Origin: Candidatus Rokuibacteriota bacterium
Lineage (GTDB): Bacteria; Methylomirabilota; Methylomirabilia; Rokubacteriales; JACPHL01
Direction: 5' to 3'
Length of the DNA: 5,268 nt
Assembly: GCA_016188625.1 (NCBI GenBank)
Contig: JACPHL010000256.1
Coordinates: 1-5,268 of the forward strand
The notes beneath the pieces are model-generated. The model saw only the letters and a list, made by a program, of their open reading frames with translations, was not told the origin of the DNA and searched no databases. Positions within the stretch are counted from its first letter, which is position 1. Every line of letters starts with the position of its first letter. A program made the translations under genes and the position numbers. Shown piece after piece: positions 1-5,268 of the stretch.

Positions 1-137
1 AAGCCGAAATAGAACGTAAAGACTGCACCGACCCCGACGCTCCCCGTCACGACCACTTGGGCGACAGGAAGGACCGCCGGAACGGTCATCCATAGAGCCG
101 CAGTCACGAGCGCGTTCCTGAGCTCGAGCCTAAGCAT
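1..137 (-). CDS. N-terminal part of an unidentified membrane protein (runs off the left edge)
   Basis: Read on the minus strand from the ATG at 137-135, the frame stays open to the window edge and gives 45 complete codons. The peptide begins MLRLELRNALVTAALW, followed by two hydrophobic stretches (MTVPAVLPVAQVVV, then GVGAVFTFYF) separated by a short Gly/Ser turn. This looks like the first membrane helices of an integral membrane protein. The start overlaps the stop of the upstream minus-strand frame (ATGcTTAG, 130-137), typical of coupled operon genes. Codon third positions are mixed, with many T and some A, unlike the almost purely G/C third positions of the plus-strand operon. I do not recognise the family. 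The plus strand here also has an open frame from 13, but its translation (Thr/Pro/Ala-rich, no helix) is not protein-like. Confidence 0.5.
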   Translation of the reverse strand, partial: MLRLELRNALVTAALWMTVPAVLPVAQVVVTGSVGVGAVFTFYFG

Positions 138-198
138 ATTCGCCCGCGATGAAGGCGGCCACGATGTCATTCAGGTTCATGTCGAGCACTTCACTATC
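130..198 (-). CDS. C-terminal tail of an unidentified gene, 5' part missing at a junction
   Basis: On the minus strand, 198 to 130 reads as a plausible protein end, SEVLDMNLNDIVAAFIAGEYA, then TAG (132-130). Its balanced composition contrasts with the Pro/Arg/Gly/Glu-rich translation of the same frame further right, which is only the antisense of the glycosyltransferase gene. Its stop overlaps the start of the next minus-strand gene by ATGcTTAG. The piece is too short to identify. It is best read as the last ~22 residues of a real gene whose upstream part is not in this window. A 16-codon ORF starting at the internal ATG (Met-Asn-Leu-Asn...) is possible but unsupported. Confidence is limited by length. 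Confidence 0.35.
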   Translation of the reverse strand, partial: DSEVLDMNLNDIVAAFIAGEYA

Positions 199-204
199 CG
201 TCCC
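190..204. other. Probable breakpoint or chimeric join between two unrelated sequence blocks
   Basis: Left of about 198, hand-counted GC is 116/198 (59%) and the believable coding is minus-strand. Right of about 199, GC is 67-78% in the rows sampled and the believable coding is plus-strand. In the plus frame, codons from CCC (202) onward have G or C at every third position through 291. The codons just to the left (CGT, ACT, CAT, GTT, ATT, GAT) do not. The glycosyltransferase becomes recognisable at RPDE (199-210). No repeat, target duplication or mobile element was seen at the join, so its nature (assembly chimera, inversion or deletion) is undecided. Confidence 0.45.
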
Positions 205-1788
205 GACGAGGGGATCATCGTCCACCGGGCGGTCCGCTTCCACGGGGGGGACCTCGACCCGCGCTTCTTCAACTGGCCGAGCCTCTCCATGTACCTCCTC
301 TCGGGCCTCTACGGGCTCGCCTTCGGGGTCGGCGAGGCGCTTCAGGCGTACATCCGGGACCCGGTCCCCTTCTATCTGCTCGGGCGCATGGCCACCGCCA
401 CGTTCGGGACGGCGACCATCGCGGGCCTCTACGTCCTCGCGGCCGGGGCCTACGGGCGCTCGACCGCGCTCCTGGCCAGCCTCTTCCTCGCCGTCAACCT
501 GCTCCACGTCCGGGAGTCCCACTTCATCACCACGGACGTCCCGCTCACCTTCCTGGTGACCCTCGCCCTGGTCTTCATCCTGCGGTACTGGCGCGCGGGC
601 CGCCTCCGGGATGCCGTCGGGAGCGGGCTCGTGGCGGGGCTCGCGGCGTCGATGAAGTACCCCGGGGGGCTGGCGCTCCTCCCCTTCTTCGTGGCCCACC
701 TGCTCCGGGCGGGCCCCGGCCCGGCCTCGGGGTGGCGCCGCCTCGTCGGGCGCGAGCCGGGGCTGGCGGTGGGGGCGGCGGCGGCGGGGTTCGCCCTCGG
801 CACCCCCTACGCGGTCCTGACCCCCGGGGCCTTCTGGCGGGGGGTGATGAGCGAGGTGCGGGAGGTGGGCTCGGTGCAGTTCGGGAACGAGGGCGCCCTG
901 CCGGGGTATCTGTTCCACCTCGTGCACTCGCTCCCCGAGGCGATGGGGCTCCCGCTGCTGGGGCTCGCCCTCGGGGGGCTCGGATGGGCGCTCTACGCTA
1001 GGGCCCCGAGGGAGCTGGTCCTCCTGGCCTTCCCGCTCCCCTACTTCCTCCTCATCGGGAGCTGGAGCGCGCGGTTCGAGCGCTACGCCCTTCCCCTCCT
1101 CCCCTTCCTGGCCCTCTGGGCCGCCCTCGCCCTGGTCGCGCTGGCCGGGCGCCTCAGGCAGGGGGGGCCGCGGCTCGCGGCCCGGTGGCGGCCCGGGCTC
1201 GGGCTGGCGCTGGCCGCCGGCCTGCTGGTCGCCCCGGAGGTAGCCCGCATCACCTACTTCCACGTCCTCCTCACCCGGGCCGACACCCGGGTCCTGGCGG
1301 GGGAGTGGATCGAGCGCCACATCCCCCCCGGGGCGCGGATCGCCATGGAGCCGTACTCCCCCGCCGTCCGGCTCGACCCGGCGATGGTGCGGGAGGCGCG
1401 GGAGCAACTGGGCGAGGGGCTGGGGGCGATGGTCCTCAGGCCTCGCATCGACCGCTTCCTGGCCGGCCCCCTCGGCGGCGAGGCGGCCGGGTACCGGATC
1501 TTCCGGCTCACCGCCTACGACCTCGATCGCCTCCTCGAGCAGGGGATCGAGGTCGTGGTCCTCTCGGGCTTCATCTATCAGCGCTACCAGCAGGCGTGCG
1601 ATCGCTACCCCGCCCCGTGCCGCTTCTACGAGGAGCTGGAGCGGCGCGCCACGCCCCTGGTCGCGATCGAGCCGGGGCTCGGGGGCCGGGCCCTCTCGGT
1701 CGGGGACATCTATGCGCCCCTGACTCGGCTCTTGGAGCGGACGCATCCGGGACCGAGCATCAGGATCTACCGGCTGCCACGATCGTAG
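199..1788 (+). CDS. Family 39-type membrane glycosyltransferase (PMT_2-like, GT-C fold), 5'-truncated
   Basis: Likely transfers a sugar from a polyprenyl-phosphate donor on the outer face of the inner membrane. Recognisable coding starts at RPDE (199-210), the acidic first-loop motif of the GT39/ArnT-like superfamily, followed by the usual GDLDPRFFNWPSL. Next come several hydrophobic helices; a second acidic loop motif, VRESHFITTDVPLTF (about 508-552); GLAASMKYPGG (about 637-669); and the late-helix motif RFERYALPLLPF (about 1072-1107). A soluble C-terminal domain starts near DTRVLAGEWIERHIPPGA (about 1282-1335) and ends in IRIYRLPRS; it holds a Cys pair (ACDRYPAPC) that could form a periplasmic disulfide. 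The first transmembrane helix expected before the acidic motif is absent. There is no in-frame ATG, GTG or TTG between the stop at 10-12 and the ATG at 289, which lies past the catalytic motif. Family assignment is firm; acceptor and sugar are unknown. Confidence 0.85.
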   Translation, partial: RPDEGIIVHRAVRFHGGDLDPRFFNWPSLSMYLLSGLYGLAFGVGEALQAYIRDPVPFYLLGRMATATFGTATIAGLYVLAAGAYGRSTALLASLFLAVNLLHVRESHFITTDVPLTFLVTLALVFILRYWRAGRLRDAVGSGLVAGLAASMKYPGGLALLPFFVAHLLRAGPGPASGWRRLVGREPGLAVGAAAAGFALGTPYAVLTPGAFWRGVMSEVREVGSVQFGNEGALPGYLFHLVHSLPEAMGLPLLGLALGGLGWALYARAPRELVLLAFPLPYFLLIGSWSARFERYALPLLPFLALWAALALVALAGRLRQGGPRLAARWRPGLGLALAAGLLVAPEVARITYFHVLLTRADTRVLAGEWIERHIPPGARIAMEPYSPAVRLDPAMVREAREQLGEGLGAMVLRPRIDRFLAGPLGGEAAGYRIFRLTAYDLDRLLEQGIEVVVLSGFIYQRYQQACDRYPAPCRFYEELERRATPLVAIEPGLGGRALSVGDIYAPLTRLLERTHPGPSIRIYRLPRS

Positions 1789-1793
1789 CCCTC

Positions 1794-3194
1794 ATGGGAG
1801 CTCGAGCCGACACGCTGCTGACGGTCGCGGTCCCTGGCTCCTCGTCTACGGGACCGTCTGCGTTCCCGACCACCGACCCGTTCTCGGCCACCGCCCAGGG
1901 GGCCGAGTGGCTCAACCACGCCTGGGGGTTCGAGCTGCTCCTCTACGGGGTGTATCGGCTGGCGGGGACCACGGGCCTCATCATCACGCCGGCCCTCTTC
2001 GCGGTGGGGACGTTCGCGCTCCTCTACCGCCTCCTCCGGCGGGAAGGCCTCGGGCGGGGGTGGGCCCTGGCGCTGATCGCGCTGGGGGCCATGGCGACCC
2101 GGGGGTTCTGGTCGCCCCGGCCCCAGCTCGTGACCTACCTCTTCCTGACCCTCTTCTGGGGCCTCCTGAGGGAGGATCGGCCTGGCCGTCCTGCCCGGCT
2201 GGCCTGGCTCCCCCTCCTGACCTTCGTGTGGGTGAACCTCCACGGCGGATTCATCATCGGGCCCGCCCTCATCGGGCTCACGCTGGCCGCGGAGCTCTTC
2301 GAGCGGGCGTTCCGAACCCAGGAGACGGTCCCGGATGGCCGGCGCCTCGGACGCCTCACCGTGACCCTGGCCGGGTGCGGGCTCGCGGCGCTCGTCAACC
2401 CGTTCCATTACCACGCGCTCCTCTTCCCCTTCCAGGTCATGGGTGACCGCCTCGCCCGGGCCTTCATCACGGAGTGGGCCTCCCCGCCCTTCCAGCATCC
2501 CCAGGTCATGCTGATCGAGGGGCTCCTCCTCCTGACGCTGGTGCTCCTGCTCTGGACCCCGCGCCCGGCCCGCTGGCGCGACCTCGCCGCCCTCGTCGTC
2601 TTCGTCCACCTGACCCTCCTGGCCATCCGGAACGTCCCCCTGCTCGTCATCGTGCTGCTGCCCCTACTCGGTCGAGTCCTGGCCGACACCGCGCCCCGGT
2701 GGACGCCCGCGCTGATCGCCGCGCGGGACTGGGTCCGGCGGCGGCTCGCGATCGCCGTGGCCGCCGCCGTGGCCGTGCCCGTGGTCGCGTGGTGGAGCCT
2801 CCCCCTGGGGGGCCTCGGGGAGTTCGTGCCCGGGCTGGGGGTGGCGCCGACGTTCCCCTCGGGGGCCGTCGAGTTCCTGAAGCGCGAGCGCCCCCCGGGC
2901 CCCCTCTTCAACGACTACGGGTGGGGGGGGTATCTCATCTGGCACCTCTACCCCGACTATCGGGTGTCCATCGACGGGCGGGTCGCGGTCTACGTCCCGA
3001 GGCTCCTCGCGGAGCATGTCGAGATCCACAACCTGCATCCGCGCTGGCGCCAGACCCTCGACCGCCTCGGGTTCGGGTTGGTCTTCATCCGCGCCCGCTC
3101 CCCCCTGGCGACCGTGCTGCGGGCCGCCCCGGACTGGGAGGTCCTCTACGAGGACCGCATCGCGGTCATCCTCGGCCGGCGGGGGAGGTCATGA
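1794..3194 (+). CDS. Polytopic GT-C-like membrane protein of unknown function, first helix apparently deleted
   Basis: 466 residues from the ATG at 1794, 5 nt after the preceding stop, with no clear Shine-Dalgarno. It is a paralog of the next gene. Shared blocks in order: FPTTDPFSATAQGAEWLNHAWG (about residues 24-45), RPQLVTYLFLTLFWGLLRE (109-127), W.NLHGGFIIG (146-156), LVNP and ITEWASPPF (200-233), VHLTLLAIRNVPL (271-283), and a C-terminal periplasmic-type domain with LFNDYGWGGY and LYPDYRVSIDGR (371-396). This layout matches a widespread, uncharacterised family of multi-pass proteins usually called hypothetical or glycosyltransferase-like. The N-terminus RADTLLT matches RADRVLT of the paralog, supporting this start. 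About 24 residues are then missing: the first membrane helix and the FDFWWYLKSG motif. Unlike the paralog it has no TPR tail. A sugar-transfer role is inferred; activity may be lost. Confidence 0.8.
   Translation: MGARADTLLTVAVPGSSSTGPSAFPTTDPFSATAQGAEWLNHAWGFELLLYGVYRLAGTTGLIITPALFAVGTFALLYRLLRREGLGRGWALALIALGAMATRGFWSPRPQLVTYLFLTLFWGLLREDRPGRPARLAWLPLLTFVWVNLHGGFIIGPALIGLTLAAELFERAFRTQETVPDGRRLGRLTVTLAGCGLAALVNPFHYHALLFPFQVMGDRLARAFITEWASPPFQHPQVMLIEGLLLLTLVLLLWTPRPARWRDLAALVVFVHLTLLAIRNVPLLVIVLLPLLGRVLADTAPRWTPALIAARDWVRRRLAIAVAAAVAVPVVAWWSLPLGGLGEFVPGLGVAPTFPSGAVEFLKRERPPGPLFNDYGWGGYLIWHLYPDYRVSIDGRVAVYVPRLLAEHVEIHNLHPRWRQTLDRLGFGLVFIRARSPLATVLRAAPDWEVLYEDRIAVILGRRGRS
3181..3194 (+). promoter_or_regulatory. 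Shine-Dalgarno and ATGA start/stop overlap between the two paralogs
   Basis: GGGGGAGG (3181-3188) lies 2 nt before the ATG at 3191, which overlaps the TGA (3192-3194) ending the upstream gene. The spacing is shorter than the usual 5-9 nt. The 4-nt ATGA overlap suggests translation of the second paralog by termination-reinitiation. The site fixes the start of the downstream gene, because the same frame further upstream is only the Arg/Pro-rich shadow of the preceding gene. Confidence 0.6.
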
Positions 3195-5023
3195 GGGCGG
3201 ACCGGGTTCTGACGGCCCTGCTCTACGGCCTGACCCTGCTCGGGGTCTTCACCCTGGCGGTCTCCTCCCTGACGTACTTCGACTTCTGGTGGTACCTCAA
3301 GTCGGGGGAGCTGATCCTGGCCGACCGCTCGATCCCGGACACGGATCCCTTCTCGTTCACCGCCGAAGGCCGGCCCTGGATCAACCATATGTGGGGGAGC
3401 CAGGTCCTCTTCTTCGCCCTCTGGGAGGCCGGCGGGCGGATCGCCCTGATCCTCCTGAAGGGGGGCGTGGTCGCGGCGACCTTCGCCCTCGTGCTCGTGA
3501 CCATGCGCCGCCGGGGGGTGCACCCCATCGTGGCCTCGGCGGTCACCCTGCTGGCGGCGTGGGCGGGGTGGGAGTTCTGGGACGTCCGCCCCCAGATCTT
3601 CACCTACCTCCTCGTGGCCCTCTTCCTCTACCTGCTGCGCGAGGGCTGGGAGGGCCGCCGGGGGAGCCTCCTCTGGCTGCCGCTCCTCATGGTCCCCTGG
3701 GCCAACCTCCACGCGGGGTTCGTCACCGGGATCGGGCTCATCGGGCTCGTCGGGCTCGGGACGGCGCTGCCCCGCCTCCTCGATCGCCGGGGGTGGCGGA
3801 CGCTCGGCTCCGCGCTCGGGCTCGCGGCGCTGGCGGCCCTGGCGGGCCTCGTCAACCCCTACGGGGTGTGGGCCCTCCTCTTCCCCCTCGAGGTCGTCGG
3901 CACCAAGTCCTTCATGATCTCCACCACGGAGTGGTTCTCCCCGAACTTCCACGACCCCACCTACCGGGGGTTCGAGGTGATGCTCCTCCTGCTCTTCCCG
4001 GCCTTCGCCTGGGGGCGGGCCCGGCTCACGGCCACCGATGTGGGGCTGATCCTCGTCTTCGCCCACCTGGCCCTGGGCTCGGCGCGCCACGTCCCGCTCT
4101 TCGCGGTGGCCGCGGCGCCCGCCCTGGCCGACGCCCTCGAGGCCGCCCTCCGAGGGCTCTGGGCGCGGCGGGCCCGCGGCTGGGAGGCCCTCGGCCGCCT
4201 CCGTCCCCACCTCCCCTCGCTCTGGCCCCTCGGCGCCTCCCCCCTCACGCACCTGGCCCTGGCGGCCTTCTTCATCGCGGTCGGCCTCGTCGCGGCCTGG
4301 GGGGCCTTCCTGGAGCCCGGCGCGAACCCGTTCCACCTGGACCTCAACGAGGCGCGCTACCCCGAGCGGACCATGCGCTTCATCACGCGGGAGCGGCTGC
4401 CGGAGCCGCTCTTCAACGCCTACGCCTGGGGCGGGTACGAGCTCTGGCGCCTCTACCCCGACTACCGGGTCTTCATCGACGGGCGGACCCACGTCTACGG
4501 CCGGGAGATCCTCCGGGACTTCCTGGAGGTCGCCAACCTGGGGGCGCGCTGGGAGGCCGTGCTGGATCAATGGGGGATCCAGACGGTCCTGGCCCTCCGG
4601 GGGTCCCACCTGACCTGGGCCCTCCTGGCGGTCGGGGGGTGGCGGCCGGTCTTCGCCGAGCGCGAGGCCGTGGTCTTCGTCCGGGAGACGGAGGTCCACA
4701 GGGCACTCCTCGCGCGGCTGCCGGCGGTGGAGATCACCCCGCCGCCTCGGGAGGCGCTGGAGGCCCTCACCGCGGCCCTCGCGGCCGCCGAGGCCGGGGA
4801 CGAGGCCGAGGCCCTCCGCGAGTACGAGCGGGTCCTCGCCCTCGCCCCGGACCACCCCGTCGCGCTGTTCAGCCTGGGGCTCCTCCGGGAGAGGCGGGGG
4901 GAGCCGGCCGAGGCCCGGGCCCTCTTCGAGCGGGTGGTGGAGGTCGATCCCGAGGGGACCCTGGCCCGGGAGGCCCGGGAGCGGCTGAAGGGATTCTCCT
5001 CGTCAGGCCGGGAACGACTATGA
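3191..5023 (+). CDS. Polytopic GT-C-like membrane protein with C-terminal TPR repeats
   Basis: 610 residues. A basic start (MRADR) leads into a first membrane helix (about 7-28), then FDFWWYLKSGELI (30-42) and IPDTDPFSFTAEGRPWINHMWG (48-69). Position and acidic character make D31 a candidate GT-C-type catalytic residue, by analogy only. Further blocks are RPQIFTYL (133-140), WANLHAGFVTG (170-180), LVNPYG (220-225), TTEWFSPNFHD (245-255), AHLALGSARHVPLF (291-304), and a last helix near 354-371. A periplasmic-type domain follows with LFNAYAWGGYELWRLYPDYR (407-426) and VFIDGRTHVYG (427-437). Residues ~520-600 add two TPR-like helix pairs ending in ALAPDHP and EVDPEG, a protein-binding module absent from the upstream paralog. 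The family is widespread but uncharacterised; a glycosyltransferase role is inferred from architecture and neighbours. The start overlaps the previous stop, and the stop overlaps the prepilin start. Confidence 0.85.
   Translation: MRADRVLTALLYGLTLLGVFTLAVSSLTYFDFWWYLKSGELILADRSIPDTDPFSFTAEGRPWINHMWGSQVLFFALWEAGGRIALILLKGGVVAATFALVLVTMRRRGVHPIVASAVTLLAAWAGWEFWDVRPQIFTYLLVALFLYLLREGWEGRRGSLLWLPLLMVPWANLHAGFVTGIGLIGLVGLGTALPRLLDRRGWRTLGSALGLAALAALAGLVNPYGVWALLFPLEVVGTKSFMISTTEWFSPNFHDPTYRGFEVMLLLLFPAFAWGRARLTATDVGLILVFAHLALGSARHVPLFAVAAAPALADALEAALRGLWARRARGWEALGRLRPHLPSLWPLGASPLTHLALAAFFIAVGLVAAWGAFLEPGANPFHLDLNEARYPERTMRFITRERLPEPLFNAYAWGGYELWRLYPDYRVFIDGRTHVYGREILRDFLEVANLGARWEAVLDQWGIQTVLALRGSHLTWALLAVGGWRPVFAEREAVVFVRETEVHRALLARLPAVEITPPPREALEALTAALAAAEAGDEAEALREYERVLALAPDHPVALFSLGLLRERRGEPAEARALFERVVEVDPEGTLAREARERLKGFSSSGRERL
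5010..5023 (+). promoter_or_regulatory. ATGA stop/start overlap in front of the prepilin gene
   Basis: The ATG at 5020 shares bases with the TGA (5021-5023) that ends the TPR-containing gene. Only a weak purine stretch (GGGAA, 5010-5014) sits at a reasonable distance upstream. Prepilin translation may therefore depend on ribosomes finishing the preceding gene. Confidence 0.5.
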
Positions 5024-5268
5024 TACCCTGCTGCCGGCATACCCCCGAGTCGAAGCGGAGGGCGGAGACGGCGCGCGGAGCTGCGAGGGATACGCGGGGG
5101 GTGACGCTCGTCGAGCTGATGGTGGTGGTGGCGATCCTCGCCATCATCACCGCCATCGCCATGCTCGCCCTCTGGCAGAACGTCCAGCAGAAGGCGAGGC
5201 TTGCCGCCGACCCGGGCACCGTCGCGGCGCTCCGGTCGGCCGCCGCTATCTACTACGGCAAGCACGAC
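5020..5268 (+). CDS. Type IV prepilin / type II secretion pseudopilin-like protein, N-terminal part
   Basis: The frame gives 83 codons and runs off the right edge. A hydrophilic, Arg-rich leader of 27 residues ends in Gly27 (5098-5100). It is followed by the prepilin signature VTLVELMVVVAILAIITAIA, with Glu at mature position 5 (5113-5115) and an uninterrupted hydrophobic helix. A PilD-type prepilin peptidase would cut between Gly27 and Val28. Residue +1 is Val where most pilins have Phe, and the leader is longer than the 6-10 residues of classical PilA. After the helix, QQKARLAADPGTVAALRSA and IYYGKHD resemble the early alpha1 region of PilA/GspG-like proteins. The protein would reach the inner membrane and be built into a pilus or pseudopilus. 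Major pilin, minor pilin and pseudopilin cannot be told apart without the C-terminal part. The start overlaps the stop of the preceding GT-C-like gene, and no in-frame ATG, GTG or TTG lies between it and the cleavage site. Confidence 0.85.
   Translation, partial: MIPCCRHTPESKRRAETARGAARDTRGVTLVELMVVVAILAIITAIAMLALWQNVQQKARLAADPGTVAALRSAAAIYYGKHD

Follow-up and report, generated by a model that had tools for sequence, protein, structure and literature searches.

The window analysed here is a 5,268-nt stretch of DNA that makes up the entire contig C60 of a Candidatus Rokuibacteriota genome (G000; 2.6 Mb in 344 contigs, 84% complete). Four genes lie on its plus strand, namely a GT39/PMT_2 gene, two unnamed GT-C genes (GTCa and GTCb), and a type IV prepilin gene. 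Their positions, together with the other features discussed below, are given in Table 1.

Table 1. Features of the window, in nucleotide positions of contig C60.
Feature	Position	Strand	Basis
Low-GC stretch without module homology; probably assembly junction or foreign sequence	1..190		GC content and three-frame translation
Gene 1, GT39/PMT_2-type GT-C transferase	190..1788	+	Pfam PMT_2 E=1.7e-13; G003 ortholog
Gene 2 (GTCa), unnamed GT-C, 5'-truncated	1794..3194	+	Alignment A1; tree grouping with G003 GTCa
29-nt identity to the 3' end of the C337 methyltransferase gene, likely junction	1832..1860	+	C337:489-517, 100%
Gene 3 (GTCb), intact unnamed GT-C, predicted STT3/PglB-like fold	3191..5023	+	AlphaFold2 model, VIA
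TPR tail of GTCb, residues about 521-600	4751..4990	+	Pfam TPR_2 E=9.6e-9; separate helical repeat domain in model
5' part of a type IV prepilin gene, joined to GTCb by ATGA	5020..5268	+	N_methyl E=4.3e-8

The original prediction had described the first gene as a family 39-type transferase, and its match to the PMT_2 profile (51.5 bits) clearly exceeds the curated cutoff of 26.1. Over the full overlap, gene 1 is 47% identical to its ortholog in G003, a genome from another family of the same order, and it keeps the EL1 RPDE motif. The first membrane helix is absent from the C60 version and present in those of G003 and of C337, another contig of the same genome. A start at position 199 had been proposed for this gene, but homology to its orthologs already begins near nt 190. 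Upstream of this point the GC content is 59%, versus 73% across the remaining window, and translation of the stretch in three frames yields no first membrane helix for gene 1. When compared with 93 other genomes of the class, nt 1-190 matched a single 32-nt piece, and they had no other match in their own genome. Contig C337 overlaps nt 198-522 of the window at 89% identity, in a mosaic fashion, with the final stretch being identical.

Genes 2 and 3 overlap by 4 nt and are 36-38% identical, as befits the two GT-C-like paralogs that had been proposed. Searches of Pfam and NCBIfam placed neither protein in a family, apart from the TPRs of gene 3, which form a C-terminal tail just as had been claimed. 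Alignment A1 shows gene 2 starting roughly 45 residues later than its G003 ortholog, without TM1 and the sequence DTDLWW (the D-x-W-W motif), and it is at this point that the window is identical over 29 nt to the end of the C337 methyltransferase gene. Either the 5' end of the gene has been lost or an assembly junction lies here. For gene 3, an AlphaFold2 model with 40 aligned relatives reached a pLDDT of 90 and a pTM of 0.88. The best solved-structure matches of the model were STT3, PglB, and AglB (VIA Z 19-23 over residues 1-502, the highest value being for STT3), followed by Pmt4 (Z about 19) and ArnT (Z about 17; Foldseek, VIA), and the TPR tail formed a module separate from the GT-C body. 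At the sequence level the likeness ends, as identity to STT3/PglB/AglB and ArnT is about 9-12%, the STT3 Pfam family has no match (E<=0.01) in 40 members of the window's superfamily or in the genome itself, and profiles A1 and A2, when searched against the sequences of the PDB, returned no solved relative. Given the STT3/PglB-like model and the lack of a sequence match, GTCb is a GT-C superfamily protein by predicted fold, and one that falls outside the named families found.

The prepilin gene is joined to GTCb by the overlap that had been reported, with its ATG (5020-5022) overlapping the TGA of GTCb (5021-5023). In addition to the N-terminal motif and hydrophobic helix detected by N_methyl, the product scores 27.9 bits against IV_pilin_GFxxxE, for which the cutoff is 16.3. 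The leader counted from this ATG is 27 residues, which is long for a type IV prepilin; those of its paralogs are 10-13. The frame is still open where C60 ends. Contig C18, whose end overlaps C60 by 31 nt with 1 mismatch within a conserved stretch of the pilin, probably carries the missing 3' part.

The surroundings of the window can be read from G003, where the block is intact and lies, with all genes co-directional, inside a full pil cluster. That cluster runs pilB-pilT-pilC-pilS-pilR-three pilA-GT2-methyltransferase-GT39-GTCa-GTCb-GTC4, and it continues with a small gene, pilD, a GGDEF gene, minor pilins, and pilMNOPQ. Contig C337 carries pilA, GT2, methyltransferase, and the start of GT39 in the same order, whereas C18 carries the end of a matching pilin, a HEAT-like gene, an HD-GYP gene, the small gene seen in G003, pilD, a GGDEF gene, and minor pilins. 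The gene names on these two contigs were assigned partly by eye from the match to G003, and the order C337-C60-C18 was derived from synteny and, for the C18 join, additionally from the 31-nt overlap. On the best explanation, the window represents the central part of a locus for type IV pilus biogenesis. The GT2 of the module, which is on C337 and adjacent in G003, matches the ArnC model at 2.3e-53 and PgfS at 2.7e-40, both below the equivalog cutoffs. These are enzymes that form polyprenyl-phosphate sugars or function in protein glycosylation.

Pil loci of relatives were read with a simple, non-curated gene caller, and their genes were labelled by phmmer against the G003 set. Within the order, 28 loci showed the position before pilD clearly enough, and 22 of these have a membrane glycosyltransferase gene there, counting the window's own locus (bridged across contigs) and that of G005 (pilD side only). 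Members of the window's superfamily fill this slot in four genomes: the window's own, G003, G031, where an 818-residue member lies between pilA and pilD, and G005, where a member stands directly before pilD and the contig ends inside the gene, leaving the pilA side unseen. In another 18 genomes of the order, one to three TMTC-like GT-C+TPR genes, unrelated to the window's family, occur between pilA and pilD. The TMTC-like label was given on visual inspection of architecture and motif. The slot proteins of L149, L162, L142, L155, and L159 matched TPR families only and had no match to DUF1736 (Pfam). Tandem copies, two or three in number, were seen in some of these 18 loci (L149, L155, L162 and 15 others). 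The six remaining readable loci (G028, G037, G014, G033, G058, and G026) have no slot gene, and a TMTC-like gene in the rearranged locus of G034 was left out of the count.

Outside the order, none of seven Methylomirabilis loci has such a membrane gene. In two loci of family f9, pilA is directly preceded by a gene of the Wzy_C-TPR type, and family f8 has one locus with a spermidine-synthase-like TPR protein. Membrane proteins of 1036-1083 residues that combine a spermidine-synthase-like domain with TPRs adjoin pilA or pilD in f8 and f9 (L164:12898-16149, L166:4925-8035, and L189:3443-6691). At least one TPR-bearing slot enzyme was present in every locus examined by Pfam, whereas TPRs occur in only about 4 of 40 members sampled from the superfamily as a whole.

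The phylogenetic tree places the window and G003 genes in one clade (96/97), within which window gene 2 groups with G003 GTCa at 100/100; the separation of GTCa and GTCb predates the split between the families of the two genomes. The genes of G031 and G005 form a second clade (100/99), and these two clades imply at least two separate entries of the superfamily into the pil locus. Beyond the class, where its distribution is under-sampled, the superfamily was found among the matches listed in Chloroflexota, Acidobacteriota, Geobacter relatives, and others; just 1 of the 80 named loci listed lies beside type IV prepilin genes, and relatives resembling G003 are absent from these matches. The superfamily is thus not pilin-specific. 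Like the GT2, it is encountered at sites distant from pil genes as well, and linkage to pilins is a property of certain lineages. The single pilin-adjacent named locus is a Nitrospirota contig in which the superfamily gene is preceded by GT2, GT39-like, and GT2-methyltransferase genes. In detail, the array there (L043:489-13691) consists of GT2, a 752-residue membrane+TPR protein, GT39-like, a GT2-methyltransferase fusion, and GTC, and it leads straight into minor-pilin genes. The expectation that the adjacency would be conserved in relatives was therefore borne out within the order, and it failed for the six empty loci there, for Methylomirabilis, and for nearly all of the listed named loci outside the class.

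A look for Ser/Thr-rich regions in the pilins, which had been advised, turned up the opposite, as the pilins of the genome itself are short and poor in Ser/Thr, which make up 9-14% of the residues beyond position 50. Ser/Thr enrichment was also rejected as a marker of glycosylation, given that loci with a slot gene (14-31%) and those without (11-31%) do not separate. A PSPP motif common to the pilins of this genome and G003 was weighed as a candidate site of O-glycosylation and dropped for want of independent support.

We found no description of the locus in the open-licence literature. Its closest known counterparts are the pilin accessory slot of TfpO/TfpW and the Streptococcus mutans Pgf operon. 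Work in Pseudomonas has shown that TfpO and TfpW are unrelated enzymes that occupy one position in different strains, with TfpW being described as a GT-C enzyme (PMC11841053). Here, too, a membrane glycosyltransferase gene adjoins the major pilin gene; unlike that cassette, however, the stretch from pilA to pilD here, itself part of a larger cluster, contains a GT2 and a methyltransferase gene in addition to several GT-C genes, and TPR tails are present. The original prediction had held that these proteins are not TfpO-like, and Pfam and NCBIfam indeed detected no Wzy_C/PglL-type domain among the window proteins. In S. mutans, the acceptor gene cnm sits beside GT2 and PMT_2 genes in cnm-pgfS-pgfM1 (PMC5856776). 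The pgfS-pgfM1-pgfE-pgfM2 operon resembles the present module in pairing GT2-type with PMT_2-type genes, but its acceptor is a Gram-positive adhesin, and the module has no epimerase and has an extra, different GT-C family. Finally, the slot proteins of the 18 relatives recall the TMTC1-4 O-mannosyltransferases in joining GT-C to TPRs, and prokaryotic TMTC homologs have been noted (PMC7801869), although they differ from TMTC1-4 in the DUF1736 result and the window's own GT-C genes belong to a different family.

That the pilus locus contains a glycosylation module is well supported by position. The position and shared direction of the genes, the GT2 that accompanies them, and the recruitment, more than once, of different glycosyltransferase families make pilin glycosylation the best reading of the locus, and we consider it probable that the module acts on pilins, the acceptor being deduced from gene position. 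That unrelated enzymes (the window's superfamily, TMTC-like, and Wzy_C-TPR) have been recruited repeatedly points to a common substrate, and the fixed place of membrane sugar-transferase genes in the pilus locus suggests that the fibres carry sugars. Weighing against this reading are the loci without a slot gene (six in the order and seven in Methylomirabilis), the superfamily and GT2 copies remote from pil genes, the Ser/Thr-poor pilins, the incomplete 5' ends of genes 1 and 2 on C60, and a contig order deduced from synteny and one 31-nt overlap. Judging from its family, the ArnC/PgfS-like GT2 would act in the cytoplasm, where it would attach a sugar to polyprenyl phosphate. The GT39 protein and the two GT-C paralogs would then use the polyprenyl-phosphate-sugar donor on the periplasmic side, and membrane-anchored pilins would be glycosylated before or during assembly. 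As guesses, the methyltransferase might cap the glycan and the TPR tail of GTCb might hold the pilin or the assembly platform. The earlier idea that this tail contacts a partner protein is a fair guess, and it is somewhat strengthened by the TPR-bearing slot enzymes of the other loci examined.

An alternative, which we regard as rather unlikely, is that the enzymes glycosylate some other surface target (LPS, exopolysaccharide, or other envelope proteins) and that their location among pil genes reflects shared regulation only. Most superfamily members, among the matches listed, do occur in contexts without pilin genes, related pairs of GT2 and TMTC-like genes lie outside the pil loci in Methylomirabilis (L172-L179), and several TMTC-like copies per genome are located elsewhere. 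Against such a view stands the close, co-directional arrangement of the genes from pilA to pilD, which recurs in many genera and with different enzyme families. It is also conceivable that the slot proteins, with a membrane body and a TPR tail, are assembly helpers with little or no transferase role. TfpY offers a precedent for a pilin accessory gene that is not necessarily a transferase (PMC11841053), and window gene 2 has lost its conserved acidic motif; nevertheless, the D-x-W-W region is kept in both GTCb and G003 GTCa, and GT2 and methyltransferase genes belong to the same block, so that we hold this to be very improbable.

A different kind of doubt concerns the integrity of this particular copy, in which only GTCb and the prepilin might be intact, with genes 1 and 2 being remnants or chimeras. 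The unrelated low-GC beginning, the absent N-termini of both these genes, the 29-nt identity at the gene 2 junction, and the mosaic match to C337 would all fit partial decay or mis-assembly. On the other side, the long open frames of genes 1 and 2 are uninterrupted by stops, and the window genes are 47-56% identical to the intact orthologs of G003. We regard this as possible, though we lean against it, and it is compatible with a pilin-directed module. The irregularities at nt 1-190, at the start of gene 2, and in the C337 overlap are read as strain-mixture or assembly junctions, with genuine truncation as the alternative.

Pilin glycosylation being the preferred reading, a bolder and more tentative proposal is that the order has kept, between pilA and pilD, a slot dedicated to the modification of pilins. 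This slot could have been filled at least three times by TPR-bearing GT-C enzymes (two superfamily entries and at least one by TMTC-like proteins, which resemble cadherin O-mannosyltransferases), with the TPR tail as a common device for holding the acceptor. If true, locus-encoded pilin glycosylation would extend to a lineage that is largely uncultured, the two bacterial GT-C families concerned (the window's and the TMTC-like), both of them poorly characterised, would gain a testable context, and the Pseudomonas pattern, in which the slot stays and the enzyme changes, would recur in a distant lineage. Escape from phages is a plausible driver in Pseudomonas and might be so here.

The pil loci also show some local peculiarities. 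In genus g9 (L162, L163, and L195), reverse-strand pilT-like genes interrupt the pil locus between pilR and pilA. Upstream of pilA on C337 (L009:2555-3078) lie two small overlapping genes that, by eye, resemble a RelE/ParE-type toxin-antitoxin pair.
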